Shown: positions 1,344 through 56,700 of the stretch, piece by piece | How the letters are laid out: each line of letters opens with the position of its first letter | Position numbering within the stretch: the first letter of the stretch is position 1 | DNA from: Capitulum mitella | Taxonomy: Eukaryota; Arthropoda; Thecostraca; Pollicipedomorpha; Pollicipedidae | DNA: 64,000 nt | Assembly: GCA_030062745.1 (NCBI GenBank) | Contig: CP099846.1 | Location: 4,526,001 to 4,590,000, forward strand | Reading direction: 5' to 3' | The notes under the pieces: generated by a model | What the model was told of the DNA's origin: nothing | The model's database searches: none | The model's input: only the letters and a program-made list of their open reading frames with translations | Program-made: the position numbers and the translations under genes

Positions 1344-1521
1344 CTGCTCCCCGGGTGGCCACCTCCATGGTGAGGAAGAAGAGGTTCGGGTCGCGGTGCT
1401 TCATCCGGTACTTGTTGAGCAGCTGGTCCACCACGTCACGACACGTGGTCGTGTACTTGACGCACATGGTCTTGTACTCCAGGTCGGGCCGCAGACACCG
1501 GGTGTACACCTTCACCGTCGT
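1344..1521 (-). CDS. Exon 3, copy 1: N-terminal half of RA domain 1
   Basis: This 178-nt exon lies between an acceptor (TTCCAG) and a strong donor (CAG|GTCAGT). It encodes the start of a Ras-association domain: it opens TTVKVYTRC and includes KYRMKHRDPNLFFLTMEV. RA domains are ubiquitin-like folds that bind GTP-loaded Ras or Rap. It enters in phase 0, which matches the phase-0 exit of exon 2 at 4858. It differs from the copy-2 exon (52557-52734) by two synonymous changes, CGG/CGC and CTG/CTA. The rest of copy 1 must lie left of the window, because no later exon is visible in 1-1343. I am sure of the RA fold and the splice sites. The Rau-like identity is inferred from the two-RA architecture of copy 2. 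Confidence 0.85.
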
Positions 1522-4500
1522 CTGGAACAGATCATACGTGTTATCAGAGCGAACTCGGAGACCCCCTGAAAAAACATTTGCATCGTTAGACGGGACATAT
1601 GTACGCACTGCAGCCTGAACAGTGCGAACATGAACGTGGCATTAAAAGGGAACGACGTAAAGATCTCAATGCAGTGCCTTGCACCACGGCGGTCAGCCTG
1701 AGATACCGCCCTCGCAATAGAACGGATTTTGCATTATTCAATAACACTGCAGTTGAAGAAGCTAAAAATACCGCACACCACCACAACGGTCTTATTGAAG
1801 CACATCGTACGCTCCGTAGTACGCAGTGGACGAAATTAAAACTCTGGAGGGAATTTAGGCGAGAACTAGTGGTCAGAGTGTGACTCGCGCCCTATGGTCG
1901 AGTGCTTCCACAACGACTGGTTCTGTTGCCAGCAACCTTGGTGTACAGAACGTGGATGGAGTAAAGCGCACTTGAGCAATGCAGCGAAGAGATCGACAAA
2001 GAATGGACCGAGAGTCTGTGACATACCGCACAAATGTGGGACTCCGTAAAAGTCGCTGGTGACATCGTCATCTGTTCAGGTAATTCTTTCCATGCAAGCC
2101 TAAAAGCTTACGTTAAATATTCGGGAAACAGCAGGCCGGAAACGGCACAGTTGGTCACTCGTTCCTAGCCCATTACGTCTTAGGAAGACTGTCAAGCAGA
2201 CTGCTTGGCATCATGAGCTTATCCACAGAGCTGAGCAGACAACAGACAGCATGACTCGGCGTCTCTGCAGAGCCTGCGCAGTGCTACAAACATGTAACGG
2301 TGCACTCGCCCGAGTAAACACCATACATATGTCCATATCAACTGCGGCGACCCCCACAGTCCCCATCGATCTCTCGTAAGAGCATCACGCGCTGCATGCA
2401 TCTGCCACACCGTCGAAAGTCGGTAAATTCTGTGGCGTTACGTCACGCAGCCGGCGCGTGACGCGCCCCGCGGGGCCGGGCCGTTATCTCGTGACGGCCC
2501 TCGCCGGCTACCGTGGCGCCCCTGACCTCGACCTCCGGGCCGCTGCCCATCGGATCCCGGCCGCCCGTAAAGACCCGGTAACGAGCCGGAACGGACCGCC
2601 CGGGCGGAGGCCTCCAGAGGGCCGACCCGTCCCGGCGCCCACCATCGAAACGTCATCGGTCGAACAGCCGGGCACGCCTTCCAGCCGCGACGACAGCGCG
2701 GCCCGCTCCGGAACAGCGTGGAAACGCTGGACCGCCGCGGGTTTACTCTGCCCCTGTAAGACTAATTTCGGCTTTTCCGCTGTAGTTTTACATGTATGAT
2801 ACCGGCAAAGGCTGGCGTCAGTTTTTCAAGCAACGTTCCGCGTTGCACTTACTGGGTTCGACTACAGCCAGGCACCAGGACGGTCCAGTAGCGCATGCCT
2901 ACAACTGTATCGCACCGGGAACAAGGCCCCCTCCTCCCTCGGCCGCCGCTGCCAGGATGACGGCTCAGTTCCACCCCTCGCCGCGTCCGGCGAGGGGTGT
3001 TGATGTCATCACCTGGTCCGGCCGACGCCCGGCGGAATAGGCCGGCCGAACGCCGCCACTTACAGCCCGTATCGGCGGCTCCCGTAACGGCGTCCGACAC
3101 CAGATCTGCCTCCGTAATGGCGGCGAATTCTGCCGCTGACGTAACGCCGGCGGCAGAGACAGGGCGGGCCGGGTGTCGGGGACAATACCGTGACGCGACC
3201 AGGTGTTCGGAACGTGTGTCTCAGGGACGTGACGGCTGCCAAGGAAACATTATCAGCGACGATCGAAACAAAGAGGCAACCTTCCTGTGACGCACCAGCC
3301 AAACAATGTATGCTACGGAGAATACGTCCGCTACACGGCGAGAGGCTTCCGCCTCATACAGTGAAATATAGCTTGCATAAAGCAAATGATCAGTCATAGC
3401 CAGCAACCTAAATTTTCACACGTAAAAAAACATTTCTGACCGTCTTTGTATATACGTAGGGGCATTTAACTTCTATTTCAATGGCCAGGGGTAAATGACG
3501 TAAATTGGTGCGGCACCGACGTGCAATGGAGTGAATTAAAAGCTATCATTCGTGTGAAGATAGCTTTTTAACGACAAATTTTCGCTAGTGTTGCCAGAAA
3601 CGACGCGGTTTTCTCTGAACTTTGGTATTATCCCATTGCACCCGTGGGACTAAGACAACAGACGTGAACCCTGCAGACGCCAACGAGATTCGCGTCAGCT
3701 ACGCATACAACGCAAAACAACCGAGTTGCCACCGCAACCCCGGCCATTGAATGGTGGCGAATGACATCCGCAAACGCTCAGCTGCGAACGAATGGTGTTG
3801 TTTACAGCCTGCTATTGCCTCCATTGTCGTTTCTCACGCGCCACAGAAAGGCAATCGCTTCGTCTTACAGGAGAAAACGTCCTTAACCAAGAGACCGACG
3901 GCGTATCTCAGTTTTGGCTAAACATTTCCTTGCCTGGCATCTCATTTAGCTGATGAGAACAGCACCAGAGCTGTGGCGAAACTCGCTTAAAGTGGTCCAC
4001 ACAAAGAGTTACAGCGTGCGTTACAGCAGCAGCCCTCAGGCGCGCGCGCTCCTTGCTCCAGAACACCTCGGCCGCCGCCGCCGCCGCCGCTCGGTAACAA
4101 AGGGTCTGCGGGCGGCGGTCGGCCGCCGCTGACGCCTCCAAGCGGCGGTGGCGGCGCCGGCGGCGGCGTCATTACGTCAGCGCCCCGCATCAGACGCGCC
4201 GCGTCATCCGCCGCCGCTAATACACGGCGGCGAAAGCGGCGCGCGGCCATTAATTCGGGATTGATTTATCGCGCAGCCACCGGCCGGCGGCGCGGCCATT
4301 AAAATTGTCGCCGCTGAGCCCCCTCTTCATCGCCGCCCCGCCGGGCGCCGCGGGCGCCGCGGTGGCGTCCCCGCCGCCACAGAGGCCGCCTCGGCGCAGC
4401 CCTGCCGGCCCGTGTGACGTACAGCCCGGCCGGCGCGGGCCGTCCTGGCCGGCCACAGAGGCCGACCGTCCACGTCCGGCACCGGTCGGATTCACCGGCC

Positions 4501-4857
4501 AGCGGCCGACCGGCCACGTCCGGCACCGGCCGAATTCACCGGCCAGCGGCCGACCGGCCCCGCGGATCGCCAGCGGCCTGCGCTGTCGGCCGGCCGGCTC
4601 CTGCGACGATGAACGGGACGCAGCGCCTTGCCTGCCGCGCGCTGCAGGGCGGCTCTGCTGGGCGGAGCCGGCCCGCTGTCGGCGCCTGTCCTGCTCCAGT
4701 CTGCTTTAAATACAGGATTAGCGCACCACCGCGCGGCGCGTGAACCGCCCGTAACGTACTGCGTTCACCTCCCTTCCGATTGTCATCTTACGAGGGCGTG
4801 TTCGCCACGCCCGAGATCTACATATCGCTCCACGTGTCGGTCAGACGGCGGTCTTAC
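1522..4857. other. Intron 2 of copy 1
   Basis: This is 3.3 kb between exon 3 and exon 2, against about 1.8 kb in copy 2. It is not alignable to the copy-2 intron by eye except next to the splice sites. It holds GC-rich patches at 2450-2760 and 4050-4740, a 46-bp tandem duplication near 4466-4558, and a small perfect hairpin at 3538-3568 (10-bp stem, 11-base loop). No extra exon was recognised. Confidence 0.6.
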
Positions 4858-5062
4858 CGTGGGCGTGGCCGGCACACTGGCGCTGCCCGTGCTGCTCTGG
4901 GTCTCGTTCAGCGATGTGTAGGACGAGGAGCGGGATGACAGAGCCGGCTCGTGCAGCGAGCTGAAGCTCATCGTCGAGGTGATGCTCAGAGTGTCGGCCT
5001 TCTGGCCGGACCGCACCAGAGAGGAGCGCAGCGGGTTCACCTGCACGTGCTTCAGCATGATC
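4858..5062 (-). CDS. Exon 2, copy 1: start codon and Ser-rich N-terminus
   Basis: This 205-nt exon has an acceptor CTTTGCAG and a donor ACG|GTAAGA. Translation most likely starts at the ATG at 5058-5056 (MLKHVQVNPLRSS...). That gives 67 codons, rich in Ser and Thr, with stretches such as LSITSTMSFSSLHEP and SSRSSSYTSLNE. It exits in phase 0, directly compatible with exon 3. Exon 1 has no open frame leading in, which supports a start here. Three bases differ from copy 2. Two are synonymous third positions, and the third lies just 5' of the ATG, so it is probably untranslated. The Ser-rich segment looks like a disordered, phosphorylatable leader; that is inference. Confidence 0.8.
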
Positions 5063-5585
5063 CTGCAAAGAATAATGTAACATGAAAACCATTGCAAACA
5101 TCAGCTTCTCGACCACACTTTGGCAGCCATGTGACATGAACCAGTCATTTACAGCAAATTCACATTAAACGTTATGATCAGGTTTAGACCCATTCCGGTC
5201 TGAAATTTACAAAATGTTTAATTTCTTGACCTTTACGGCTTCCTTACTCTTCCACGATTGGGAGGAAAAACAAATCCCTTCGTTTCGAGCGACTGCTGTC
5301 CTGCGAGGGACAACAGCCTCCCTGGCCGCCGCCCCGGCCGGCAGCCGGCGCCTATCACGCCGTACGGGTAAACAGTGGCGGGCCGTTCTCCGGGGACGTC
5401 TGGAGCCGGGCCGACAGTCCGGTTATTGATACAGGCCCGCTGTGGGAACCGCCGCCGGCCGCCCGCGCCTGGGAGAGCGGCGCACGGCGGACGGGGGAGG
5501 GCCGGACGTCCTCGCGGGCCCGCTGACAAACGAGCGAAGCACACGGCGGGACCGTGGGACGGTGGGCGGCGGCCCGGCACAGGGG

Positions 5586-5690
5586 CGAGACCAGGACACA
5601 CGGGGACGAGACCAGGACACACGGGGACGAGACAGGACACACGGGGACGAGACCAGGACACACGGGGACGAGACCAGACACGCAGGCGAG
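5586..5690. repeat. 21-bp minisatellite, about five units
   Basis: Near-perfect 21-bp units with core GACCAGGACACACGGGGAC lie in intron 1 of copy 1. They cause overlapping open frames on both strands that are not genes. Confidence 0.95.
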
Positions 5691-7495: not shown

Positions 7496-7670
7496 CCAAC
7501 CCCGCTGTAGCTATCACGCTCCGCTATGCACGCCCTCAGTTTCTACAGCCTGTTTCAGCCATCCATCGCACCAACACCGCACATTTCACCGCGGCCAGCA
7601 GCAAACGCACCTCCCCTCAGCGGCGGAACACGAACTGAGCGGACGTCGCCGGAACCGGAGGTGTACTACG
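7496..7670 (-). other. Probable 5' untranslated exon 1, copy 1
   Basis: This region lies downstream (minus strand) of the CRE/CCAAT module at 7683-7707 and ends at a good donor, GTTGG|GTGAGT, at 7496/7495. The distance from the first CRE base to the donor is 187 bp here and 190 bp in copy 2. Short upstream ATGs in both copies meet stops within a few to about a dozen codons, so the exon looks non-coding. The 5' boundary is a guess from the promoter position. Confidence 0.45.
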
Positions 7671-7682
7671 CTCCAAACGGTG

Positions 7683-7707
7683 TGACGTCACAGGCCCGTG
7701 GGCCAAT
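7683..7707 (-). promoter_or_regulatory. CRE plus CCAAT module, putative promoter of copy 1
   Basis: A perfect TGACGTCA (7683-7690) is followed after 12 bp by CCAAT (7703-7707). Read on the minus strand, the CCAAT box precedes the cAMP-response element, as in many animal promoters. The same pair with the same 12-bp gap occurs upstream of copy 2 (56676-56700), inside a locally similar segment of about 170 bp. Use by CREB/ATF and NF-Y factors is inference. Confidence 0.55.
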
Positions 7708-10700: not shown

Positions 10701-10980
10701 CAAATTAGCATTTCCTGCAGAAAATTTTTCTCTTTTACGGCCCTTGCTCACGATTAACCACCCACATTGCCAAACAATTAATCTTCTATACAAACATATG
10801 CATGACTGCGTATCCCTTCCGAAACGAGCCATCAAATAAAAACGAATCTTTTATCGGTGGGCAGCGCATGCAGTCAGATGATGGATGACATCACCGTCCA
10901 AACCAGCAGTGCAGCTGATCGCGATCCGCCGGTGCGCCGCGTTTCGCCGGTGCGCCGCGTCTCGCCGCACCTGTCGTTAA

Positions 10981-12007: not shown

Positions 12008-12021
12008 AATTAACCAATTAG
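12008..12021. other. Conserved island B, upstream of copy 1
   Basis: AATTAACCAATTAG here corresponds to AATTAACCGATTAG at 59635-59648. The offset (about 47.6 kb) matches islands A and C. On its own the match is short, and it is supported mainly by its colinear position. Confidence 0.3.
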
Positions 12022-12124: not shown

Positions 12125-12172
<48 letters not shown>

Positions 12173-12192: not shown

Positions 12193-12452
12193 CGGAATAG
12201 TCTGCTTCCATTGGGAAGGATCACTGCTCTTGGGAGGGGCCACTGGCTTTGGCACGCGAATGCCAGCATGTCTTCCGGCCTTTGATGAGACCACGAGCAC
12301 GTCTGATAATCTGCGTGATAGGCAAGTCGCCCATCTTTTTTGCTGTCTTGCTTCTGGTCGTTATCGCAGGTGATGATTCTGCGACCTGACGACCTGCAGC
12401 AGGTCGTGGCGGTCCAGGAAGGAGCGCCGGCCACCCCGCCGCCGGCCGGCCG

Positions 12453-12597
12453 CCGACCGCGCGGTCAGCTGACCGGGCCACGCCGTTCCCGCCGCCGTTA
12501 ACATTGTTTGGGCGGCCGTTCTCACGTGGCGGCCGGGCGCCGGTCGGCCGCGGCTGGCGGTGACCCGTGGAGGCGCGCAAGGTCGCCGGAGGTCACC
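12453..12597. other. Conserved island C, upstream of copy 1
   Basis: This roughly 145-bp GC-rich block is nearly identical to 60061-60206, with a handful of substitutions and one short indel near the edge. It holds CCGTTAACATTGTTTGGG. The spacing of differences does not keep to one codon position and splice sites are not shared at the edges. I therefore prefer a conserved non-coding element or upstream exon over a coding exon. Confidence 0.55.
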
Positions 12598-13365
12598 CTC
12601 CGGTGCCGGGTTCAGGCCTCGTCTAACTGTCGCAGCGACCTGGCTCACGGACAAGCGCCAGCGGTTGCGGTGGTGCACGACACCGCTGAGACGTCGGGCC
12701 GTGCGCCCAGGGAATGACAACCATGACGGAAAACAAGAGCAAAATATGTGAGATGATTTCCGAATTGTGCTAAAACCTTCGTCGCCCTTGCTGTTTGAAC
12801 CAGCCAACAAACGGGACACGGATTTTGACCAACAAAGGAGCCATGCTTTGGCGACAATGGCGATACGTGGTCGCTGGAATAGTGAATCGCAGCCTATCTT
12901 CAGGATGTTAAATTATCAAATAGAGATTCAGTTGTTTGCAGTTAAACAACTTAATCTCTGTTTGACTGAGCAATTGTAAAAAATGGCAAGTCTGTCGTTT
13001 TTACAATCACGCAGTTGCGGCCTTACTGCGCATTTTGTTTTTCGCAAGCAAGAACAAAAGTACAACATACAAAAGAATAGTGAAGACGCCTGGATGGAGG
13101 ATGACACATACGGACATCTGGTTGACCTCTCACAGATGGATTTCTCAGTGATGTCTACCACAGACGAAAGTCTTGGAGGTGTCTGACACAGACTGACCTT
13201 TGAATGACCTCTGTCAGAGGCTGTCCAGGTGTTCACGTCCAGAAATCCACCAGGCGAAGTGTCTGCGCTGCCTGCCAGGCCACGGCAGTGGCTCCACCCG
13301 CCCCGGGCAAGGCAGCGGCCCCGGGCGGACTGCATCTCCAGCTGGTGTCGGAACTGATAACGAGC

Positions 13366-18274: not shown

Positions 18275-18925
18275 CCCGATGCACAGGAGGCAACCCTGAA
18301 ACACGGAGTCTGACATGCTGAAGGCAACCGTGACACACGGAAGACAACCATGACTTACAGGAGACAACTACGATATACGAAAGGCCATTCTGACAAACAG
18401 AAGACGACTCTGACACAAACGAAGCAGCCCCGACACCAAGGAGACCATCACGACATGCGGAAGACAATCCTGACACCCGGGCAGGACTGGGGAGGAGGGG
18501 CAACCCTGGTGGACGGAAGATAGTCTTGACTGAAGGAAGACGATCCTGAAACGCAAGGAGAGCAGTCCTGGGATACACGGAGGACAGTCCCGGAACACAC
18601 GAAGAACAGTCCCGGGACACACGGAGAACAGTTCCGGAACACACGGAGGACAGTCCCGGAACACACGGAGATCTGTCCTGGAACACACGGAGCACAGTCC
18701 CGGGACACACGGAGAACAGTCCCGGAACACACGGAGGACAGTCCCGGAACACACGGAGATCTGTCCTGGAACACACGGAGAACAGTCCCGGAACACACGG
18801 AGGGCTGTACCGGGAACACGGACGACAACCCAGGAACACACGGAGGACAGTCCCGGAACACACGGAGGACAGTCCCGGAACACACGAGAACAGTCCCGGA
18901 ACACACGGAGAACAGTTCTGAAACA
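18275..18925. repeat. 22-bp minisatellite with degenerate flank
   Basis: The right part (18560-18925) consists of regular 22-bp units with core GTCCCGGAACACACGGAG. To the left the same period fades into degenerate units such as AAGACAACCATGACTTACAG. Because 22 is not a multiple of 3, three units make a 22-residue protein repeat. All minus-strand frames are open as a result, and I do not call genes there. Confidence 0.95.
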
Positions 18926-21640: not shown

Positions 21641-22543
21641 CAGGGAAGTAGCCAAGGGGGGCAAGGGGGCCATGCCCCTCCCCTCAAGCCAAGCGGTGTA
21701 CGCACTAAATATATGGCGATTTTGCAGGAATTCGTGATAGTGACCATATATATGTTGCAAAAGCAAATACTATGTTTTCCTGTGTGTTAATTTTTTAAAA
21801 AACAGATAATATTGAATGCACACGACATCATTCCAGGCGACCCCAAGGTCACTGGAGGTCATTTAAGGTCAAAGGTCACAAGTTGATCTGAAGAACGTGT
21901 GACCATGACAGTTCCCCCTTTTTATGTCCCTGGCACCGTCTATCCTAACATTATACAAACATTGTAATGCGATTTGTACTTCTTTAGCATAACATGACTA
22001 GCAAAAGCTAAAAAAGTGTTTTGGCCTCTTTGTTCATTCCGTTATAGAAAGCTAATCCCCTATTTTGAAACCCTGTGAACGCCCATGAATTTTTTCAAAA
22101 TTTCAAATTTGCATACCCATGGTAAAAGCCCTATCCATAATCTCTCGATTCATGCCAGTTTCATCGAAATCGGTCCATAAACAAGGGAGTTATAAGAAGT
22201 CAAAAAGTACCCCCGATTTTGACATTTTTGCCCCCCTGTATCCACAAATTTCAAAATTTTGAGAATTTCTTTTTTTAAAAATGTAGTTCACGTCACGGCA
22301 AATCGATTGCCGTTTGTTGCGATGAAATCGGATAAGTAGTTCTCGAGATCTCAGGGGGGGCCGAATCCGCCCCCCCCCTGCCGGGAATCGGTCATACCGT
22401 CTAGCCCTCCGGGAATAGGGTTAAGTACGAGGTAAATTATATAACATTACAGCGTTTTACTTATAAACTCCGCCACATGTCAGTGGCATATGACAAAATT
22501 TGACACTTGACCACCCCTGAGGAAAATCCTGGCTACGTGCCTG
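21641..22543. mobile_element. hAT-like non-autonomous element hosting a MITE
   Basis: The ends are inverted: CAGGGAAGTAGCCA on the left and CAGGCACGTAGCCA (inverted) on the right, 12 of 14 matching. They are flanked by 8-bp direct repeats GTGCAACT (21633-21640) and GTGCGACT (22544-22551). Eight-bp duplications and CAGG ends are typical of hAT transposons. The truncated family-1 MITE lies within it, so the MITE inserted later. There is no transposase frame. Confidence 0.7.
21791..22424 (-). mobile_element. piggyBac-type MITE, family 1, truncated copy
   Basis: The right half of the element is present up to its long end and TTAA (22421-22424), with a palindrome at 22354-22378. Similarity to 47332-48550 begins near ACAGATAATATTGAATG (about 21801). 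The left roughly 590 bp, including the short end, is missing. It lies inside the hAT-like element 21641-22543. Confidence 0.85.
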
Positions 22544-24751: not shown

Positions 24752-25989
24752 TTAAAGTGTGGCTTTTTAGAAACGGACAACTGATTGTGAATTAGCCCAG
24801 TTTCCATACCCATAGCAACAAACGAAAATCGGCTTGCCCGGCGTAAACTGTATTTTATCAAAAGAATTCCTGAAAATTTTGGAAGGGGTGGTTGTATACG
24901 GAGAGGCAAAAAATTCCGAAATGAATGTATTTTTTTACTTGTTATAATTTTGCTGTTTACTTGCATTTTTAAAGTAACTGGCATGAATCGAGAGTTAATT
25001 AATGGGGCTTTGCCCAGTATCCCACATATTTGGAATTTTGGGAAAATTCGTTTGCGTTCGGAGGCATTGGCAAATGAGAGGAATATTTTTTTGAAAACCG
25101 AATTGAAATAAAAGTCAAAAGTATTTTTTTGTTTTTGCTAGTTAAAGAAGTACAAATTGCATTACATTGTTTGCATATTGCTGGCGTAGGCGGCGCTCGG
25201 GATATGGAAAGAGGGAACTGCCATGGTCGCATGTTCCGCATGTTCATCACGTCATCTTAAAACCTTTGACCTTAAATGACCCCCAGTGATCTCAGAGCCA
25301 CATGGAATGGACTCGAGCTCATTTCATAATGTTTGAAAATGATCCAAGTCATTTGACTTGGCTGTATTTCTAAAAGTCCTGTTCATGGTCATCCTGATGA
25401 AGGTCGGGAATCCGCGCGGACATTTTCGGTCATAGCTCCGTGACCAAACCTGACATGAGCCTAAAACGTGAAACATAAGTAAAGAGCATTGTGCTGAGTT
25501 ATAATGTTCTGAACCTCGCATTTTGAAATTAGTGTAGAAATGCTTACATGAGCCCAAATTTTTACTTTTAACGTTACCTTGACATTGTAAAGTGAACTGG
25601 GATATACAAAAGTGCTTTCGTATGCTTTCACATTTATTTACGTGTATAATCAAAAAGTTTTAAGTCCTATATCAAAGTTATATAAGAGAATAGATAAAGT
25701 CAATTATAAAAGCTATAGTCCTATATTTAAATCCTGTATTTTTGGCAGTCATTTGTATTTTACCTTCAACAGTGCCAAAAATGGCCTGAGATGCCTACTA
25801 AAACCTTGGTCTTGCTACACCCCAGAGCGAAATAAAATTATGAAAATTTGTCGTAATGCGCAGAGGAAACAATTAAGAAAAGCCTCCAAGTTTCGTGAAG
25901 CTGCTTCAAAAAGGAACTGAAGCAACTTCACCAGCAAAAAACAAGCGGGGGCTTCTGAAGCCCCCTTTCGAGACGGGAATAGGGAGTAA
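24752..25989 (+). mobile_element. Decayed piggyBac-type MITE related to family 1
   Basis: Matches to 36768-37993 in the same orientation include AAAGAAGTACAAATTGC, GACCTTTGACCTTAAATGACC-like sequence and CCAAGTTTCGTGAAG. The right end keeps CGGGAATAGGG (25974-25984) but its TTAA has decayed. The palindrome survives with a different core, GGGGGCTTC/GAAGCCCCC around one base (25947-25965). The left boundary is approximate: a TTAA at 24752 gives a similar length, but the inverted end is not recognisable. Confidence 0.6.
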
Positions 25990-36159: not shown

Positions 36160-36595
36160 TATATTGTTGTTTTATGTTAGTTGCATGTTGCATGTTTTAT
36201 GTATGTATTAGGCGTATCTTTTATGTTTTAGCGATGTTTGATGTGTGTTGTATGTTTTAGCGTGTGTTTGCATGTATGTTTTATGTTTTAGCGATGTTTT
36301 ATGTATGTTTTATGTTTTAGCGTATGTTTGTATGTATGTTTTATGTTTTAGCGATGTTTCATGTATGTTTTATGTTTTAGCGTATGTTTGTATGTATGTT
36401 TTATGTTTTATGTTTTGGCGGTGTTTTATGCATGTTTTATGTTTTAGCGTATGTTTGTATGTATGTTTTATGTTTTAGCGATGTTTCATGTATGTTTTAT
36501 GTTTTGGCGTATGTTCGTATGTATGCTTTATGTTTTGGCGGTGTTTTATGTATGTTTTATGTTTTAGCGTATGTTTGTATGTATGTTTTAGCGAG
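36160..36595. repeat. 60-bp TG-rich minisatellite
   Basis: About seven 60-bp units are built from TATGTTTTATGTTTTAGCG and TATGTTTGTATG. The plus strand is almost only G, T and A. The resulting frame (FYVLAYVCMYVLCF repeats) is an artefact. Confidence 0.95.
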
Positions 36596-36767: not shown

Positions 36768-37993
36768 TTAACCCTATTCCCGGAGGGCTAGACGGTATGG
36801 CCGATTCCCGGCAAGGGGGGGGGGCGGATTCGGCCCCCCCCTGAGATCTCGAGAACTACTTATTCGATTTCATCGCAACAAACGGCAATCGATTTGCCGT
36901 GACGTGAACTACATTTTTATGAAAAGAAATTTTCAAAATTTTGAAATTTGTGGATACAGGGGGGCAAAAATGTCAAAATGGGGGGTACTTTTGGACTTCT
37001 TATAACTCCGTTGTTTATGAACCGATTTCGATGAAACTGGCATCAATCGAGAGATTATGGATAGGGCTTTTACCATGGGTATGCAAATTTGAAATTTTGA
37101 GAAAATACATGGGCGTTCACAGGGTTTCAAAAATAGGGGGATTAGTTTTCTAATAACTGAATGAACAAAAGAGGCCAAAACACTTTTTTAGCTTCTGCTA
37201 GTCATGTTATGCTAAAGAAGTACAAATCGCCTTACAATGTTTGTATAATGTTAGCATAGGCGGTGCCAGGGACATAAAAAAGGGGGAACTGTCATGGTCA
37301 CACGTTCTTCAGATCAACTTGTGACCTTTGACCTTAAATGACCTCCAGTGACCTTGGGGTCACCTGGAATGATGTCGTATGCATTCAATATTATCTGTAA
37401 ACGTTTTTAATCGATTGAATTCACTCTATTCCAAAAAAATTATTTTTTGGCTTTTGCGATATAAGGTACGCGCACTGACATTTTAGGTCATAGCTCCGTG
37501 ACCCGACCTGATATCAAGCTGAGCTTGTTACACAAGTAGAGGGCACCCTTCTACGTCATATATGTTCCGGATTTGGTATTTGAAAAAATGGTGCCGAAAT
37601 TATAGCGAAAAAAACAAATTGTGACTTTTGACCTTGACCTGACCTTGTAAAGTGACCTCAGATAAACAAAATTACATATGCACATTGCCCAACTATTTAG
37701 CTATACATTCATATAAAGTTTCAAGTTGTATCTTAAAAACTCTGTTTTTGGCAGACATTTTCCTTTTACCCTCAACATGGCCAAAAATGACCTGAGGTGC
37801 CTCCCAAAAACGTTGCCTGGCTCCGCCCCTGAGGAAAACAGAATTCTGAAATTTTGTCACGGCACGTAGAAGGAATAGCTAGGAAAAGTCACCAAGTTTC
37901 GTGAAGTTGCGTTAAAAAGCCTGGAATTGGCAAGCAAAAGCCCCGGGGGGGGGCGGATTCCGCCCCCCCCCCCCCTGCCGGGAATAGGGTTAA
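36768..37993 (+). mobile_element. piggyBac-type MITE, family 1, full length
   Basis: A 1,226-bp element bounded by TTAA (36768-36771 and 37990-37993) with inverted ends CCCTATTCCCGG. The left end repeats ATTCCCGG 28 bp further in (36776 and 36804) and the right end does not. G-run/C-run palindromes lie at 36815-36841 and 37945-37975. It is colinear and near-identical in many stretches with 47332-48550, which is inverted relative to it. It has no transposase. A perfect direct repeat TGACCTTTGACCT is at 37322-37334. Confidence 0.9.
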
Positions 37994-41400: not shown

Positions 41401-41409
41401 TAGCACGTA

Positions 41410-41830
41410 TCCACCCCAGCTCCGTTCAGATCCTCTCCCGTTCGGTACATATTCTTCCCAGCTGGGTACAAATCCTCCCTGGTTCGGTACAAATCGGCCC
41501 CAGTTCGGTACAGGTCCTTCCCAGTTCGGTACAGATCCTCCCCAGTTCGGCACAGGGCCTCCCCAGTGCAGAACAGGTCCGCCCCGGTTCGGTACAGATC
41601 CTCCCCAGTTCGGCACAGGTCCTCCCCGGTTCGGTACAGATCCTCCCCGGTTCGGCACAGGTCCTCCCCGGTTCGGTACAGATCCTCCCCAGTTCGGCAC
41701 AGGTCCTCCCCGGTTCGGTACAGATCCTCCCCAGTTCGGCACAGGTCCTCCCCGGTTCGGTACAGATCCTCCCCAGTTCGGCACAGGTCCTCCCCGGTTC
41801 GGTACAGATCCTCCCCAGTCCGGTACCAGC
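41410..41830. repeat. 21-bp minisatellite with 42-bp dimers
   Basis: Units of CAGTTCGGTACAGATCCTCCC alternate with a CGGCACAGGTCCTCC variant, giving a regular 42-bp dimer from about 41570. Because 21 is a multiple of 3, frames are open on both strands, up to 323 codons on the plus strand. They reflect the repeat. Confidence 0.97.
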
Positions 41831-46088: not shown

Positions 46089-46131
<43 letters not shown>

Positions 46132-47331
46132 ACCGGGCGGGTTTCCACTGTCGCCGGCCGGCGGCGGCGGTCTTCAGACGGCCCGGTCACGAGCTGGCCG
46201 GCCCGGCCAGCGTCGTGACCGACTCGGCGGACCGCCACAAAGCCGGCGCCGGCCCGATTCTGGAAACGATTGAGCAGCGAATCGGTAACGAGCGGCGGCC
46301 GCCGACCGCCGTGACGCCGGCTAAAGACTGCGACAGGGGTTAAACAGTCAACTCACGGGCGGGCTGACTGGGGGAGACAGAAGTTAAACGGTCAGAGTCA
46401 CAAACGTCCTGGCTGGGAGGCAAGCACTGGTTAAATGGCGCAATTCTCGGACAGCCTCACGAAGGCCGTGGCTAAATGGTCCAACTCACGGATAGTCCAG
46501 GTGCGACCAGAAACTGGTTAAATGGCCTACCTCACTGGAGGACTGGCCTTCGGCTAGCGGCTGGGGAGGACAGAGAGAACGAGCATCTTATCTGTGAAAG
46601 ATGAAGTACAGGAATCATTCAGTCACCTTTGGTTTGGAGCCTTGCGCTGTGTGTGGCGGCGGCGCCTCACGTGCGGAGGAACTGGTCGCTGTCATCAGTC
46701 GGCGGCGCAGACGGCGGAGGGGTGAGGGGACTCCTCGAGCGTCGTCCCTCGTCCCCGTCCGAGTCCGAGTCAGTCCGCGCCGACCGGCGACTCTGACTCC
46801 AGCGCAGAAACTGTCGGCAGAGAGACAGAGGAGTTCTCTGAGCCGCGGGCCGTAGCATGGTCAGCACATGACGGGTCAGCAGGGGTCATCTGTTATTGAG
46901 CTGGCCCAAAATTCGTTTTTGCAGTCGGCAGCACTAACTTACTACTACACACCACTACACATTTAATCATAATTTATTGATCATTTGTTTAAGTTTCCTT
47001 TTTTATTTTTAACACTATTATGTACTGCTAAGCGAGGACCATGCTCAGACATCAAACTGCGGGGGACTAGGTATGCCACTACCATCAGATGATGACCAGT
47101 TTTGTTTGCATTCGTAGACAACCGCTCATTTTATATCATTACGTCAACCGTCTACTCGCGTCTGGGCTCTGCATATGGCCGCCAGATGACGTCGCGTCAG
47201 TGGCACCAGAGCACTGATCACTGATGGCGGCTTTCTAGCCCGCTCTTGGCTTGCAGGCGGCAATATTGCCACTGGACGCCAGGACTTTCAACGTGGGGGG
47301 CACGAAATGAGCCGTCATTTGCGCCGAGCGT
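42300..47331. other. No supported gene
   Basis: Mixed DNA with GC-rich patches at 43490-43760 and 44930-45120. A (CGG)n run of about 14 units spans 46090-46131. Degenerate GGTTAAA.GGTC repeats lie at 46330-46560. Frames at 45195-45692 (minus) and 44434-44727 (plus) are noted but unsupported. Confidence 0.5.
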
Positions 47332-48550
47332 TTAACCCTATTCCCGGCAGGGGGGGGCGGAATCCGCCCCCCCCTCGGGTTTTTTGCTTGCCAATTCCAG
47401 GCTTTTTAACGCAGCTTCACGAAACTTGGTGACTTTTCCTAGCTATTCCTTCTACGCGCCGAGACAAAATTTCGAAATTCTATTTTGCTCAGGGGCGGAG
47501 CCAGGCAACGTTTTTGGGAGGCACCTCAGGTCATTTTTGGCCATGTTGAGGGTAAAAGGAAAATGTCTGCCAAAAACAGAGTTTTTAAGATAGAACTTAA
47601 AACTTTATATGAATATATAGCTAAATAGTTGGGCAGTGTGCATATGTAATTTTGTTTATCTGAGATCACTTTACAAGGTCAGGTCAAGGTCAAAAGTCAA
47701 AATTTGTTTTTTTGCAATAATTTCGGCACCGTTTTTTCAAATGCCAAACCCGGAATATATATGACGCAGAAAGATGCCCTCTACTTGTGTAGCAAGTTTC
47801 AGCTTGATATCAGGTCGGGTCACGGAGCTATGACCTAAAATGTCAGTGCACGTATCCTATATCGCAAAAGCCAAAAAATGAATTTTTTGGAATAGAGTGA
47901 ATTTAATCGATTAAAAACGTTTACAGATAATATTGAATGCACACGACATCATTCCAGGTGACCCCAAGGTCACTGGAGGTCATTTAAGGTCAAAAGTCAC
48001 AAGTTGATCTGAGAAACGTGTGACCATGACAGTTCCCCCTTTCTCATGTCCCTGGCACCGCCTATGCTAACATTATACAAACATTGTAATGCGATTTGTA
48101 CTTCTTTAGCATAACATGACTAGCAGAAGCTAAAAAAGTGTTTTTACCTTTTTTGTTCATTCCGTTATTAGAAAACTTACCCCCCTATTTTTGAAACCCT
48201 GTGAACGCCCATGAATTTTCTCAAAATTTCAGATTTGCATACCCATGGTAAAAGCCCTATCCATAATCTCTCGATTGATGCCAGTTTCATCGAAATCGGT
48301 CCATAAACAACGGAGTTATAAGAAGTCAAAAAGTACCCCCCATTTTGACATTTTTGCCCCCCTGTATCCACAAATTTCAAAATTTTGAAAATTTCTTTTT
48401 ATCAAAATGTAGTTCACGTCACGGCAAATCGATTGCCGTTTGTTGCGATGAAATCGGATAAGTAGTTCTCGAGATCTCAGGGGGGGGCCGAATCCGCCCC
48501 CCCCTGCCGGGAATCGGCCATACCGTCTAGCCCTCCGGGAATAGGGTTAA
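47332..48550 (-). mobile_element. piggyBac-type MITE, family 1, second full-length copy
   Basis: A 1,219-bp element in inverted orientation to 36768-37993, again flanked by TTAA with CCCTATTCCCGG ends. The short end is on the left and the long (28-bp extended) end is on the right. Palindromes lie at 47350-47374 and 48480-48504. It lies about 0.4 kb beyond the last recognised exon of copy 2. The high similarity to the other copy suggests recent activity by a transposase encoded elsewhere. Confidence 0.9.
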
Positions 48551-48954
48551 ACGAACCTAAAATCTGCAACGAAGGATGACAACGTCGCGACTTTTGATGC
48601 GGTTGTTTGTGCACGCCTGTGCAGCGCAGACATACGACTCACATAACCATCACGCCTGTTACCATCCTTCAAAGGCATCAGCGCAACACCCTCGGTCCAA
48701 ACCTCTGGCTGTGTCGGCTCCACAAACCGTCATCCGCCGACAGCTGGGGGGCCAACTCGGTGGGCGGCCGTCGCAGCCGCAGTATCAATAAATAGCCCGG
48801 CCGTGTTCCGATCGAATGGGCCCCACTGAGCCGCAGCAGTGATATCATCGCCACCGGGGGCCTGCGCGCACCGAGTAAACATCCTCTTCAGATGACGTCA
48901 CCGAGCCCAGACCGCCCACACCAATTGAAACAATCGGCCTGTAGCGTGCTGAAA

Positions 48955-49164
48955 TCATCCCGCGGCGGGCAGCAAATTGGGGAGGGGGGCGCGAAAGCCA
49001 CCCACCGATCGCCTGAGGGGGAAGTCCCGGCCGGTGCGCGGAGTGCCCGGCGGCCGCTTCCTCAGCACGAAGCTGTAGTCGCCGGTGGATTCCCACTCGT
49101 GCTGGATCACCAGTGGGCAGTCGTCCGGGTGTAGCTTGCGCTCAAACCCGATCGACCGGCAAAC
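48955..49164 (-). CDS. RA domain 2, C-terminal exon, copy 2 (possibly terminal)
   Basis: It follows an acceptor TTTTCTAG and enters in phase 0, joining the previous exon as VYE|VCRSIGFERK. It encodes the last strands of an RA domain, including LHPDDCPLVIQHEWE and YSFVLRKRPPGTP. This resembles the end of afadin-type RA domains, where an acidic-CPL motif precedes a W and a FxLxxR strand. The frame can run to an in-frame TGA at 48957-48955 (69 codons). Alternatively, a donor TCG|GTGGGT at 49006/49005 would give a 159-nt internal exon. I cannot choose between these, and no later exon was recognised. Confidence 0.75.
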   Translation of the reverse strand, partial: VCRSIGFERKLHPDDCPLVIQHEWESTGDYSFVLRKRPPGTPRTGRDFPLRRSVGGFRAPLPNLLPAAG

Positions 49165-49319
49165 CTAGAAAAGACCATTTCTAAAATTTAGCGTGATGCT
49201 GCGGGACTGATTAATGTATAACGCACTTGGATTCTCAGAACTTTGCTTCTTCTGATCTTTCAACTCTAGTCCTGGGGCAACAAGAATCAACCGGAAACAA
49301 CAGAGTAATTTTTACCCAC

Positions 49320-49433
49320 CTCGTAGACGCTGAAGAGGTTGACGCTTTCTGTCGAGTTGTAGCAGTTCAGCAGCAGCTGGATCATCTGGTCTACTGTTGT
49401 TCGCTCAGAGACCAACAGGCTCTTGTACTTGGA
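49320..49433 (-). CDS. RA domain 2, central exon, copy 2
   Basis: This exon is exactly 114 nt (38 codons, phase 0 to 0), with acceptor ATTGCAG and donor GAG|GTGGGT. The product contains SKYKSLLVSERTTVDQMIQ and LLLNCYNS, ending FSVYE. It is the typical RA helix flanked by strands. It joins the 49815 exon upstream and the 49164 exon downstream without a frame break. No copy-1 counterpart is in the window. Confidence 0.85.
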
Positions 49434-49814
49434 CTGCAATGCACAGTCGCAGCATTACATGATGAAATACCAAACATCCCTGAAGCGGATTCACTGTTTC
49501 AAACAAGTAAATTCAGCCTTTAACAGGAAAGGTTGTTCCAGGGATGGCATCACAAGGACCCAGATCGTTCATGTAATTGGCGTATAATGCTTCTTTCTGG
49601 CCCGCAGGTTTTTTGCTGCTTTTGGTGTTTTTTTTGTCTGCTGGTACAGGTTATTGCCGACAAATACACAATTCGCTCGTGCGTAAGAAGCGCCGAAAAA
49701 ACACGCGACCTGTGGAAACAGTATTATTTGTCGTTCCACATTCGACGGATATTCCTTTGGCATCCTCGTCAACACAGGTTTGTTAATGAGCATGCAGTTT
49801 ATCCTCCAACTTAC

Positions 49815-49878
49815 CTCAGCCATGAGCACACTGTCGAAAACCTTCACCAGACCGCCGTGTCTCATGCGAATAGTAAAT
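49815..49878 (-). CDS. Exon joining RA domain 1 to RA domain 2, copy 2
   Basis: This is a 64-nt exon: one base completes an Arg codon, then 21 codons follow. The acceptor is GTGTTTCAG and the donor is GAG|GTAAGT. It encodes FTIRMRHGG, the last strand of RA1, and LVKVFDSVLMAE, the first strand of RA2. The two RA modules are therefore adjacent with almost no linker. It accepts the phase-2 exit of the 50794 exon (AG|A). Confidence 0.85.
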
Positions 49879-50438
49879 CTGAAACACACATTGACGATGA
49901 CACTTACATGATAAGGGTGCTACTAACATCAACCTTCCAAGACGTACGACAATGATGTCGTCTTGCAAGAAGCTCCAAGAGCTTGCAACGACGCAATTTC
50001 ACTGAACTTGCGCAAAACCGTGCTCCATTTCCGGCGCGATACGTCAGTCGGCGCAGCAGCTCCACATACAGGCAGACTGACGACGAGTCGGCGCCAGGCT
50101 GTTTCCGATCAAAAGGAATGCGTCGGCTCAGACCGCCCCGGGGCATGGGACGCCACAGCCGGGGCCGGCCGGCTGTCGGCTGCGGTTTTGCCGAGCCGAT
50201 TAGCCGGAAACGGCTCAATTTGCTAACTGCGCCGACCGCGCCCGGCCGGCGCTCCCACGGGACCGTCCAGGCTGGGTGGTCCCGGCCGGCGGCGGTCCTG
50301 GACCAGAGCTGGCGACTCTGACGTGGTCTCGTCGTCCCCTGGACCGCCGGTCACCTCGTGACGTTTGAGGTATGACCATCACTGGTCGCTTCGCTCCAGG
50401 AGCGACGCGTCGCGTTCAGTTCCGCCATACGGCAACTC

Positions 50439-50698
50439 CCCAGTGACGGTCACGTCCAAGTCCGCCCGACTACAGCCCCCAGTGACGCGCCACGTCCAGC
50501 TCTGCCCGACTACAGCCCCCAGTGACGCGCCACGTCCAGCTCTGCCCGACTACAGCTCCTCAGTGACGCGTCACGCCCAGCTCTGCCCGACTACAGCTGC
50601 CCAGTGACGCATCACGCCCAGCTCTGCCCGACTACAGCCCCCAGTGACGCGTCACGTCCAGCCCTGCCCGACTACAGCTCCCCAGTGACGTGCATGGC
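50439..50698. repeat. 40-bp minisatellite, about 6.5 units
   Basis: Units with core CAGTGACGCGYCACGYCCAG and TGCCCGACTACAG. It lies about 100 bp from the exon at 50794, within an intron of copy 2. Confidence 0.95.
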
Positions 50699-50793
50699 CA
50701 GTACTGGTCTGCGGTGGCTGGAGGTCTCGGCACGGGCTGGACTGACCCGGGGGAAGGGCCGGTGTCGTGACGGAGGACGCCGGCGGCACTCAC

Positions 50794-50879
50794 CTGGAGT
50801 CGGCTCGCGGGTAGCAGGCCTGCAGCTGAGCCGGACACGAGTCGTCGTCCAGCACCAGGATCGTCCGCACCGGAGGCGC
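50794..50879 (-). CDS. RA domain 1, C-terminal exon, copy 2
   Basis: This 86-nt exon has acceptor TTGGCAG and donor CAG|GTGAGT. In the frame that joins the next exon it reads APPVRTILVLDDDSCP and then AQLQACYPRADS, typical of the second half of an RA domain. It exits in phase 2, as the 49878 exon needs. Its entry phase (0) does not match the phase-1 exit of exon 3 (52557). Either a small exon was missed or exon 3 uses a different donor. Confidence 0.75.
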
Positions 50880-52556
50880 CTGCCAATAACGGAACCAATC
50901 AGCACACCACGGACGTTATTGACGGATGATCTGTTTTCCGGTGCTGTCGGTGGTTGGTGGTTGTGCCGTATGAGGCCCTATAATCAATTTATCTGCGCGG
51001 GGGCGGGTCACACTCGTGGTCAGATAATTACGGCAGAAGTAGCCCAGCACCGCACACCACTGGATGGTGCCCGAAAGGCTTTTCCATTCTTTACCGCCGT
51101 GACCTCAATCGACCCGTCATGACCTTTGGTGCGGTCTTGGCGGAGGGCGCCCACTCGACCCACATATTGGACAGGTGCGCACGGTACGGTAGTAGTCAGT
51201 GTTTTGCGAAGACCCCATACAGAGTTGGGGTCTTACCTGTTTATGAAGTTGACGTCTTATTTATTTATTAATTTTATTAAATCGTTGGGCGTTTACGGTC
51301 TACTACAGCCAATGACGCGTTTCCTTGCTCTTGCACGCACCAGCTCCGTTTTAACGTGGCTCGTGACCGGACAGTCGAGGGGATTGTGTTTAGACGGTTC
51401 GCAGCGCCAGCATGCGTACTGCGCAACGGTCAATGAGTGACTCGACCAGGGGAAGGACAAAGGATAAGGAGGGGTGACCGCGGCCTGACAGCCACAAGGC
51501 ATCGTATATAGATTTCTTCGCCAGTTTCATCCCTTCCGGCCACTCCGGACACCGAATTTGCAGCGTGAAACGAAGCAGCCATAAGTTACAGCAAGTAATC
51601 GGCCCCCGTGGCAAGCCAAACCTGACCCTGGTAGCATACGTTGTTTGCCATTGTGCATGGGTAGAATTTGGTTGAAAGTTCGGGAAACGGTCCACTATAT
51701 CCGTTTTCAAGTGTTCTGTGTGTTATTTATTGTTGCTGTGTTCGTTGTGTGCTAACTGCATTCGGAAGTGGGATTATTGCCTGTGGACGTTTAACTCATA
51801 ATAAACAATAAACATTATCAAACAGGCGCATCAGAACTTCGGGGAAAATTATCATTACTCGCCAGGCTTTGCGTGTAAAGTATGAGCTTCAAAATGTCAT
51901 GCGTGTCCACAACCATTTTACCGACGTGTCGTCCCTGCTTCCGCGATCGGTAACTAACGACACGACCCTGTGGTAGTCAGACTGATCCTATATCGGCCAG
52001 TTACCACCTGATCCAGCGAGCCAAATATCGAGCGCCGGGGTAACTCTAACCCCTCTTCCGAGAACGAGGCGACCATCGATCTAACCAGATCACAGTAGTT
52101 CATCGTAAACACACAAGTCAAGTCTGCTGGTCACCGTGCAAACGGATACAACTCCACCGATGCTGACTTCCTGTCCGATTATAACCGGCCGGCTGCTATC
52201 AGAGAGACAGAGGTAACGTCCAAGTCCTAACAACACGGTACAAGACAACACGTTTCGATACACTTTATCGGTCTTATCTAACTGGGGCCATCACGATGTT
52301 CCAACTCGTCCGTTTCCGCTGCATGTCGGGAAAACTATTCCGCGTGCAATTCATACCGTCCGCTCAAGTACCGGCTCTGGCGAAACACAGACCAGCCTGC
52401 CAGCCGTGACGGAGGTCTGGTCCGTCGATTGCATCGCGAATGCCGCTCTCGAATTGAGACCCGTTCGCCGCGGAAACGTCTCACTTCCGGCGACGGAGCT
52501 GGCCCCAATCGATGAAGGTTCGAAGCCCGACCAGCTGGACTGCGGTCTCCACTGAC

Positions 52557-52734
52557 CTGCTCCGCGGGTGGCCACCTCCATGGTGAGGAAGAAGAGGTTC
52601 GGGTCGCGGTGCTTCATCCGGTACTTGTTGAGCAGCTGGTCCACCACGTCACGACACGTGGTCGTGTACTTGACGCACATGGTCTTGTACTCCAGGTCGG
52701 GCCGTAGACACCGGGTGTACACCTTCACCGTCGT
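52557..52734 (-). CDS. Exon 3, copy 2: N-terminal half of RA domain 1
   Basis: This is the 178-nt counterpart of 1344-1521, with the same acceptor (TTCCAG), the same donor (CAG|GTCAGT) and an identical protein. It starts a Ras-association domain in phase 0. With the exons at 50794, 49815, 49320 and 48955 it builds two consecutive RA domains. Proteins with two RA domains include Rau, afadin/canoe and phospholipase C epsilon. The small, linker-free arrangement and Ser-rich leader fit Rau best, by recall only. Confidence 0.88.
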
Positions 52735-53406
52735 CTGGAACTAGTAGAATGATAGCTTACATGACGACCAAACTCCTCAACGGAGGATTGGTATCTGGTC
52801 GCAAAGGAAGCGGAACATCGTCTCGTGCATGGATCTTGAATTCGGAACAGTCAATGACCCGCATTGAGTGAAGGGAGAAGGACCAGTGTGTGGCATGCAA
52901 GCCACATTTCAATGAACGACAGTGCGTCACGTGAGACATAAATGAAACCCTGAATGTTTCGACACATTTATGGCTATGAAGAATTTCGAGGAGGAGCTTT
53001 ATATGATTAGACCGGTTTAAACTGCCCCATGTACGATGCTAATCCGTCGTTTAGCTGACGTTTCCAAATAATCAGAAATCGATCAACAGAACTGCATCAC
53101 GACTAGAAGAATCATTGTTGGCAATGCTCCGATTACGTTCCGGTGTGGTGTAAGCCGATTTACGACCACGTCTTTCTCACGGCGTCTCGCTCCCACGGTG
53201 CCGCCTTTCAATCGCCGGATCTACCCCTCGCACACCCCTTCCCCACTCCGTGACCCCTCCCGTCCACGGTCCCAGCCAGCTCCGAGCCGCTGCGGGCCGC
53301 CCGCACGCAAGCCGAGCGCGTAACCCAAAACCGCGTCGGGCACCGGTAAACGTGGCGGCTCTCCGGTAAAACCCCTCCGGTGGGCCAGGAACCCAGTCTG
53401 GACGCA

Positions 53407-53431
53407 CCCCCCCCCCCCCCCCCCCCCCCAC
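53407..53431. repeat. Run of 25 C
   Basis: An uninterrupted C homopolymer in intron 2 of copy 2, inside a GC-rich patch (53180-54230). Its length may be unreliable in the assembly. Confidence 0.95.
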
Positions 53432-54570
53432 GGCTGCGGGCCCGGCGTCATTACCGTACCGACCGCCGAGGAAGGCGCCGGCTAATCATCGCGCCGGCTA
53501 AAAACGGCCTAATGACGACGCCGGCGGCGGCGAGCCGGCCGGCGCAGCCGCTCAGACGCATTAAGGCGTTCCCACGTGGACGACCTGTGGGAGCTGACCC
53601 AGAAAGGACCCGCTGCCGGCCGTCGGCGGCGGCTACCCCTCCCGCGCCCACCTCCCGGGCAGAAGGCGGCCGTCCTCGGGACGGCGTCCTCAGCCGTCCT
53701 CATCACCGACCCCTGAGGACTGCCCCACCAGGCCTGCCGCCCGACCTGACGCCTCGGTCCGCGGGAGAGGGCGACGACAGACAGCGGTGACGATGGCTGT
53801 TGACGCGCCTCCGCCGTCCGGCCGAGCCCGAACTGCGGCCAATCTGCCGCCTCCCGTCCTCGTCCGTCTCCGGCAGCGGCGACCACCCAGCGCCGGCCCC
53901 GCTGCCCGCGGCTCCGACGGGCGCCAGGTGCGTCAGGCACGCCCCCTGCCGACACCGGAGCCGCCCCAGCGTCGGGTCACCGGCCCAGTCGACCCCCCCC
54001 CCCCGACTCACCACCCAGGGGGAGCGGTGACGCCCCCAGCCCTCCCGCCGGCGCCGCGCACGGCTCCGACCGGCGCGGCGTACTCGGGGGTCTATTGTGA
54101 CGGGACTTTAAAGTGGCGGCGCCGACGACAAAGGCGACGCACCTTTCTCTGCGGCCGACACAGGAATGTACTGAGAGTCGGCAGTCGTCACGGAGTGGGC
54201 CCAGTCGTCCTGGTGACGGCGGGCGGTGATAAATGACGGCGCGGCAGTAATACGGAATGACCGGGCTCGGACACGTCTAACGCGGTTCCCAACGGCCGTT
54301 CAGGGACGTGATCTGGTGACGCCTACTGGTGATTCAGCGGGGATCATTCGGTTTACAAGCTGTCCCAGGGTACGGTAAAACGCGACGATAGGTAGGTGTG
54401 ATGCTTTGCTGGTTGCTGAAAGATGCCTCTGGACCTGATGTCTGGAGGGGATGGGAGCATCCAGACACTCAGAGCATGGCAACACTGCGCAGCCACTTCG
54501 ACTGACCAACAAGCGGGAAGTCAAGTCAAGAGGAACCGACAAGCGACAGCCGGTCAGATATTTATCTTAC

Positions 54571-54775
54571 CGTGGGCGTGGCCGGCACACTGGCGCTGCC
54601 CGTGCTGCTCTGGGTCTCGTTCAGCGATGTGTAGGACGAGGAGCGCGATGACAGAGCCGGCTCGTGCAGCGAGCTGAAGCTCATCGTCGAGGTGATGCTC
54701 AGAGTGTCGGCCTTCTGGCCGGACCGCACCAGAGAGGAGCGCAGTGGGTTCACCTGCACGTGCTTCAGCATGGTC
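54571..54775 (-). CDS. Exon 2, copy 2: start codon and Ser-rich N-terminus
   Basis: This 205-nt exon has an acceptor CTTTGCAG and a donor ACG|GTAAGA. The ATG is at 54771-54769 in the context ACCATGC. The 67 encoded residues are identical to copy 1. Similarity to copy 1 stops within about 10 bp of the acceptor and about 20 bp of the donor, although the exon itself differs at only three bases. It splices in phase 0 to exon 3 at 52734. Confidence 0.83.
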
Positions 54776-56485
54776 CTGCAAAGAAGGAAATGCTACTTTT
54801 CCAGCTGACTGCCCTCTCAAATAAGGCAACGATAAAACGGGGCACAAAGGCGTCTGCAAGTGCATGCACAAACTTAGGAGGCGAGGTTCTCGTGATGCAC
54901 GTTTGCTATCGGTGGCATGAGGGCGAGCGTGGACAGTTATTGACGTAGAGTTCATACGGTTTCCTCCGACACGCGCAGCAAACGGTCCATGATGGCTACT
55001 GTTCCTGGAGTGCATCATCCTGCCGTCATCATCATCATCCTGCATCATCCACCATCAGAGCGGGACTGGGACAGTGTCGACCACCGTAATCTGACAGCCG
55101 TCCGTGTTGCCGACCACTCGAGCGGCGCCGTGAGGAGCGCAGGCGCCCGGCACGCGATGGTCATGTCAGCGGTGTTTTCCGACTGCCGGATTACGCCGAC
55201 ACGAATTCGCGCTGCAATGGCGGGTCGTTGTGCGCGATCTCGGGACAATGGCACCGGCCGGGCCACCGATGAAGCATTGTCCCCGCTGTCCTGGCCTACA
55301 TTCGTCACTCACTTATCGGATATAGCGTAGTCCTATCTTGGTTTCATTCAGTAAATCTTAGTGCTCCTCATTCATCGATACCATCGGTGCGTTTCGCCAC
55401 TTTCCTGAGGCAACGATAAGAACAATGGGTCATTATTGCATGGACTTTCACCGTCGAACTGTCCCGCCGATGCGGCCAGCAAGAGGTGGTCGATCTGGGT
55501 AGCCGCCAGGCATGTCGTGACTGTGCTGAGGCGTGAGCATCGAGGTTAAAGGTGCACCGCTTGTCCAGACCATCAACAAAAATGTTCTGCAGAAATGAAG
55601 CAAAAACACGCGGCTTTGCCGCCGCACTCTACAGCTGATGGCAATTCCAACTGTTAGTCCGAAAACATATCGATTTCGTGGCCAAGCGATTAACGCTGTC
55701 ATAACTGATTGATTTATCTGTCGAGAAAAACTTGAGACCGCTGACAGAAACATGCATCTATGTGGGTCAACTGCGCAATATTTGCATTCCATGAGAACAG
55801 AACAGCAGTGCGCATCCTCGTTCAGCTCACTACCTAGCCATCCCGCACATGATATTTGAAACACCAGCCTTGAGAGCAGTCCCGCACGTGACTGCGGCCC
55901 ACACGGACAACACCGCAAGGACAGGTAACGTGGCCATGCCCGAGGCGGCAAGATGTCCACGGCCCGGCCAGCCTGGTAGTCTGACCTGACCGCCTGACCA
56001 AACGCCAGTCAGTAAAGCCGCGCCGGACGCCGGAGCGGCGCAGCAGTCGGCTGCTGAACGTCGCGGGAAGCCGTGCCGGCTCGGAAGTCGTGCAGTCCGC
56101 GCCTGTTACCGCAGACAGCCCTCGGCGCCGCCGCCGGGGAGTTCAATGCCGGACGGCGCAAGAGCCGGGGACCTTCGCGGACGGGCCCGGACGCTGGCAA
56201 CGGTACTTCAAGAGTTCCACGGCTGAACGTGTTTATCTATACATTTCTCACGGTAATGAAACAAAACTTCCGCCCTGCCGACGCCTGGCATTCGTACGCG
56301 GGTCTTCCGTGAATAACAGCCGTTACGGCGCACGGTTGGAAAATAAACTAGCGCATGGTATGTTTTCTAAGCAAACCACATGAAAAGGCAGCGGCTGGCC
56401 CAGGCGAGAAATGCTGTCCAAGCAGTGCAGTTTGCTGCATCTGTTCGTACAGTCCGTGAGTGTTTGGCCATCTGGCCATCCTCAC

Positions 56486-56660
56486 CTCGTAGTCCAGAAC
56501 GCCTGGGGTTTCGGAGGGCTTCCGCCGCTTCACAGGAGGCTTCCGCCACTGCCCAGAGCCCGGTCCACCATCGCACACTGCACGGGCCCCGCCACACCCG
56601 ACCCGCCCAGGCTCCGCTTACACATGAACTAACGCAACCGCCTGGAACGGAAGGTGTAGT
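56486..56660 (-). other. Probable 5' untranslated exon 1, copy 2
   Basis: This region lies downstream of the CRE/CCAAT pair and ends at donor GAG|GTGAGG (56486/56485), 190 bp from the first CRE base. It shares AGTTC.TGT and GTGCGATGG with copy 1. Its upstream ATG runs only 13 codons to a stop. A frame without ATG runs through it, but copy 1 does not keep it. The transcription start is not known. Confidence 0.45.
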
Positions 56661-56675
56661 ACCGGCCGCACGGTG

Positions 56676-56700
56676 TGACGTCACCGCAGCACGAGCCAAT
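56676..56700 (-). promoter_or_regulatory. CRE plus CCAAT module, putative promoter of copy 2
   Basis: TGACGTCA (56676-56683) and CCAAT (56696-56700) are separated by 12 bp, exactly as at 7683-7707. Flanking similarity to copy 1 includes GGTGTGACGTCAC and a GGAGGTGTA/GAAGGTGTAGTAC stretch. It sits about 1.9 kb upstream of the start-codon exon, against about 2.6 kb in copy 1. Confidence 0.55.

Follow-up and report, generated by a model that had tools for sequence, protein, structure and literature searches.

Exon-by-exon homogenisation in an old family of two-Ras-association-domain genes of Capitulum mitella, probably by interlocus gene conversion

The stretch of DNA analysed here, referred to as the window, covers 64,000 nt of contig C8 of Capitulum mitella (C8:4526001-4590000; G+C 54%) and holds two members, copies A and B, of a gene family with two Ras-association (RA) domains. 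Searches of the 477-Mb genome (16 contigs) returned six matches for the start-codon exon (S) and six for the exon of the first RA domain (RA), at the same six loci, and all six are on one contig: five close copies (A-E) and a more distant sixth member, copy F. Copies A, B and C share one orientation at 4.52-4.63 Mb, copy D is inverted at 4.64 Mb, copy E is at 7.30 Mb, 2.7 Mb away from the other close copies, and copy F is at 23.92 Mb, so that C, D, E and F are all outside the window. Reading along the copies gave seven coding exons per gene, designated S, RA, x4, x5, x6, x7 and x8; for copy F, the exons that could be placed are part of S together with RA, x4 and x6.

Both genes of the window are on the minus strand. 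In copy A, exon S (4858..5058, 201 bp) carries the start codon and is near-identical in copies A-E; it is followed by an intron of 3336 bp (1522..4857) and by exon RA (1344..1521, 178 bp), which differs from that of copy C at no position, from B at 2, from D at 4 and from E at 26, while the remaining exons lie to the left of the window. In copy B, exon S (54571..54771), the S-RA intron (52735..54570, 1836 bp) and exon RA (52557..52734) are followed by the other exons at 46667-50879, all inside the window: x4 (50794..50879), x5 (49815..49878, 64 bp), x6 (49320..49433, 114 bp), x7 (49006..49164, 159 bp), which encodes the end of the second RA domain, and x8 (46667..46810), the last coding exon, with the stop codon, whose limits were inferred from a CAG acceptor and the stop and which is strongly diverged from the other copies. 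The reading frame is open through x7 in copies A, D and E. One extra base in x4 of copy B (86 bp, against 85 bp in the other copies) and one in x7 of copy C (C8:4622067-4622226) put these two genes out of frame as assembled; at the site in copy B the sequence is TCCG where A has TCG and C, D and E have TCC, as if both forms had been joined. Upstream of the genes, a stretch of about 190 bp is 88% similar between the two copies (12422-12603, 7.4 kb upstream of S in copy A, and 60024-60212, 5.3 kb upstream in copy B); none was found near copies C or D, and it may represent a promoter or 5' exon that both copies share.

The encoded protein of copy A has about 314 residues, 267 from exons S to x7 and 47 from x8. 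When the 267 residues were run against Pfam, two stretches matched the Ras-association domain (PF00788; E = 7.5e-37, 126.3 bits against a Pfam cut-off of 21), in agreement with the preliminary description of a two-RA-domain gene, and, RA models apart, no Pfam domain scored above its cut-off in this part of the protein. By sequence, the best solved relative of the first RA domain is the RA domain of afadin (1wxa, E = 1.7e-10), and part of the second matches afadin Ras-association structure 6amb weakly (E = 0.008). The likeness to afadin is one of sequence in the RA domain; afadin is a larger protein with further domains, whereas the protein described here is small, at about 314 residues with two RA stretches. 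Drosophila Rau, which we take to be a two-RA protein, is a candidate relative.

Repeats are a further feature of the window. Two copies of an element of about 1.2 kb (47329-48553 and 36768-37993) are 95% alike and in opposite orientation, with perfect terminal inverted repeats of 19 and 16 nt starting TTAACCC, which may point to piggyBac-type elements. The copy at 47329-48553 sits in the last intron of copy B and has no open frame of at least 150 codons wholly inside it, and partial or diverged relatives occur at 21802-22424 and 24811-25913, and near C8:4496000 and C8:4507600. Tandem arrays of 20-60-bp units are present at 18550-18916, 36214-36590, 41409-41826, 50404-50690, 59789-60068 and 62632-62857. 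Open stretches of 150-330 codons occur in several of them, in more than one frame and on either strand, so that long open frames in these places mean little.

The two copies of the window had drawn attention because exons S and RA were described as near-identical and their introns as unalignable, and this holds: the exons have the same lengths and differ at 4 of 379 coding positions (2/201 and 2/178), all four differences being synonymous (dN 0 in both exons), with a fifth just before the ATG (GATC/GACC). Past the four splice sites, similarity between A and B persists for 7, 11, 14 and 20 bp and is then lost, and the trimmed S-RA introns, of 3336 and 1836 bp, give a local alignment score of 32 against 33 for the best of 20 shuffles. 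A common transposon filling the first intron of copy A was not supported by a genome search with that intron, which (very common words being skipped) found the intron itself and three short matches of 75-86% on other contigs.

A very different picture emerges when the comparison is taken through the whole gene. Between A and B, divergence is 1.0% in S, 1.1% in RA and 1.2% in x4, and 17% in x5, 28% in x6 and 3.8% in x7 (columns with a gap in A, where B x4 and C x7 have their extra bases, being dropped), while in x8, counted without gaps, 68 of 147 sites differ. Among A-D, for which alone x8 was counted, 29-46% of its sites differ, and x5, x6 and x8 are 17-46% apart in most pairs. Exons S and x4 are alike in all five close copies (0-5.0% differences), and in S, RA and x4 GC3 stands at about 0.9. 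Per-exon dS, tabulated for A-E (copy F being only partly placed), is 0.04-0.08 in S in all ten pairs, against 0.52-3.0 in x6 in nine of the ten, the exception being B-C at 0.22; B-C is also the one pair in which synonymous codons of x6 are shared above the prediction from codon bias, taken from a codon-use model derived from the same gene copies. Third-position differences are unevenly distributed over the exons in every one of the ten pairs (permutation p = 5e-5, the floor for 20,000 permutations). Low divergence is therefore confined to particular exons, and which exons these are depends in large part on the pair.

Because synonymous sites of these genes have reached saturation in other exons, the copies are old, and in old genes unalignable introns are to be expected. 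The apparent paradox of alike exons around unrelated introns is resolved once all seven exons are compared, and the thing to explain is why certain exons are so young. A recent duplication whose introns were afterwards replaced was also considered, and was rejected on the strong divergence that x5, x6 and x8 show as well in most pairs.

An assembly join between two very divergent haplotypes had been proposed as another source of the pattern, and this is extremely improbable. Five close copies are present on one contig, four of them within 4.52-4.65 Mb with D inverted and one at 7.30 Mb, 2.7 Mb off; the exons that are homogenised depend on the pair; and the 17-46% that separates x5, x6 and x8 in most pairs of A-D is beyond ordinary allelic difference. 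The flanks outside the genes share just scattered matches, many of which are repeats. Haplotype joining was accordingly rejected on copy number, orientation and divergence.

Individual copies are mosaic in structure. Copy C shows no difference from A in RA (178 bp) or x5 (64 bp), but differs from it at 30 of 114 positions in x6; towards B it differs at 9 of 114 positions in x6, yet at 11 of 64 in x5. At sites where A and B differ (11 in x5), C is A-like at all 11 in x5, whereas at the 32 such sites of x6 it is B-like at 25, A-like at 4 and neither at 3, and the contrast between the two exons is strong (p = 6e-7, A-like and B-like sites only). A change of affinity can also be seen within an exon: C and D differ at 10 positions of x7, 8 of them within its first 21 bp (p = 9e-7, for a cut picked after the alignment was seen), and this clustering indicates a breakpoint inside x7, an exon in which B and D differ at only 2 positions. 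Copy E alternates between two states along its length, matching the other close copies in S (2.5-5.0%) and x4 (1.2-2.4%) and differing from them in RA (15-16%) and in x5, x6 and x7 (26-39%); set against each of A-D at third positions, it shows 5-6 differences at the 95 positions of S and x4 and 66-72 at the 172 of the other four exons (p < 4e-10). A PHI-type test, in a version of our own, gave a recombination signal along the alignment (p = 0.003), and a test for concordant runs, whose power is low for exons that hardly vary across the copies, gave p < 0.05 in two of the ten pairs (AC and BD) and not in the other eight. What was found comprises segments alike at silent sites, mosaic copies with breakpoints and a signal of recombination, by which gene conversion is recognised.

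Purifying selection on synonymous sites, whether through splicing, RNA structure or codon use, would hold S, RA and x4 alike with no exchange at all, and it would fit both the likeness of S and x4 in all five copies and their GC3, as well as that of RA. It would also fit the behaviour of copy F, not regarded as converted, which shares synonymous codons with the close copies above a family-wide codon-use model in S (23-24 of 32-33, where about 15 were predicted) and in RA (27-32 of 35-37, where about 21-23 were predicted), with z of 2.5-3.7. In x4, however, F is 29-32% different from A-D and shares about as many synonymous codons as predicted (12 of 16, against 10). More generally, which exon is conserved depends on the pair in RA, x5, x6 and x7: RA is within 0-2.2% among A-D but 15-16% from E, x5 is identical in A and C but 17-36% apart when either is paired with another copy, x6 is similar in B-C alone (A and B differ there at 32 positions), and in x7 copy C changes affinity inside the exon. 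As a general cause, such constraint is thus very unlikely, although it may account for S and x4 specifically. The excess in copy F may reflect local codon bias, some constraint or an old exchange, and the same could be true (with an older exchange) of the agreement of E and F at 17 of 18 shared-residue codons in x6; neither observation fits the conversion account neatly.

The introns, although mostly unalignable, add evidence of their own. Of 50 intron-pair comparisons (five introns in ten pairs, after trimming of the ends), 6 score far higher than shuffles, and all 6 concern the RA-x4 intron among A-D; six further comparisons come out above the best of 20 shuffles less clearly, about two being expected by chance. 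Immediately before x4, the final 20 bp of the RA-x4 intron show no difference in any of the six pairs of A-D, and upstream of these identity declines in a manner that depends on the pair, A and C for example sharing 93 of 97 aligned columns between -200 and -100. In copy B the alignable 3' end of this intron is 50880..51125, and at the same place in A, C and D there is a stretch of about 170-250 bp that is about 80% alike in A-D and absent from E; it is either residual homology or a conserved element. At the other end of the intron, in the 91 bp that follow exon RA, B and D share 84 positions, after which similarity falls to chance level, whereas the other nine pairs of A-E share 17-33 of 91. 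This tract, at 52466..52556 in copy B and common to copy D only, is read, on the alignment, as a conversion tract that probably crossed the splice site. Its divergence, about 0.08 (7/91), may be compared with a dS of 0.10 in the adjoining exon RA (4/43 sites), both being small numbers: synonymous sites do not appear slower than intron sites between B and D, which argues against synonymous constraint here and for a tract of DNA that extended over the splice site.

These tracts also bear on the template. If conversion were templated by spliced RNA or cDNA, exons would be edited and the edits would stop exactly at splice junctions, and indeed most homogenised stretches run no further than about 20 bp past a splice site, and A and B show about equal low divergence in S, RA and x4 (1.0, 1.1 and 1.2%). 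The loss of intron homology by itself would produce the same endpoints, however, and the 91 bp after RA in B and D, the last 20 bp of the RA-x4 intron in A-D and the pair-specific patches upstream of them all lie across splice sites from the exons they adjoin. A spliced template would, furthermore, hardly explain why copy E is homogenised in S and x4 and not in the intervening RA. Together, the crossing tracts and the RA exon skipped in E make conversion from spliced RNA unnecessary, and we regard it as highly improbable.

The preferred explanation, in which we have high confidence on the strength of these alignments, is recurrent interlocus gene conversion, by which the exons of an old family of two-RA genes have been homogenised individually. 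The introns would have turned over first, while constraint on the protein would have kept some exons similar enough to pair, so that repair tracts could start and end within exonic islands of homology. Each conversion would reset its island and so preserve the similarity needed for the next event, and the less constrained exons, namely x8 and, in most pairs, x6, would have dropped out of the cycle. The template would have been the genomic DNA of another copy, because some shared tracts run past splice sites, and conversion would be limited to exons because it is mostly only exons that still share homology. Of the three explanations that had been offered for copies A and B, which as a set are partly supported, exon-restricted gene conversion is the one borne out, with mosaics across five copies, breakpoints inside one exon and one intron, and saturation in other exons.

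The process itself is already known, exon-restricted conversion having been published for a copepod, and the present locus is a rich case of it. In Tigriopus californicus, conversion between the paralogues GOT1Sd and GOT1Sr is described as mostly exonic, next to an intron too divergent to align (PMC3728101), and in this respect the two loci are alike. They differ in that the copepod system is one gene pair and its conversion was tested with population samples, whereas here one assembly contains five close copies, exon mosaics with multiple donors, an 85-bp exon among those homogenised, and a partner copy at a distance of 2.7 Mb. Among the class I ADH genes of primates, conversion makes the exon and intron histories of old paralogues disagree (PMC3409193), and conflicting histories of this kind are seen here also; the ADH introns are alignable and many of the conversions intronic, unlike the mostly unalignable introns of this family.

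A much broader reading would have exons of a gene family in this lineage evolving together as independent units: conversion would take them one by one, in islands down to 85 bp and across distances of megabases, would persist well beyond the loss of alignable introns, and might act throughout the genome or with spliced RNA as a guide. We consider this unlikely. At the scale of the locus, the implications are more immediate. A duplication dated from the best-conserved exons would seem a few percent old, when other exons of the same genes are saturated, and families of this kind would mislead gene predictors and tree builders. With converted and unconverted exons within the same genes, the locus is its own control, and it could be used to test the minimum length and the maximum distance of homologous tracts that still convert.
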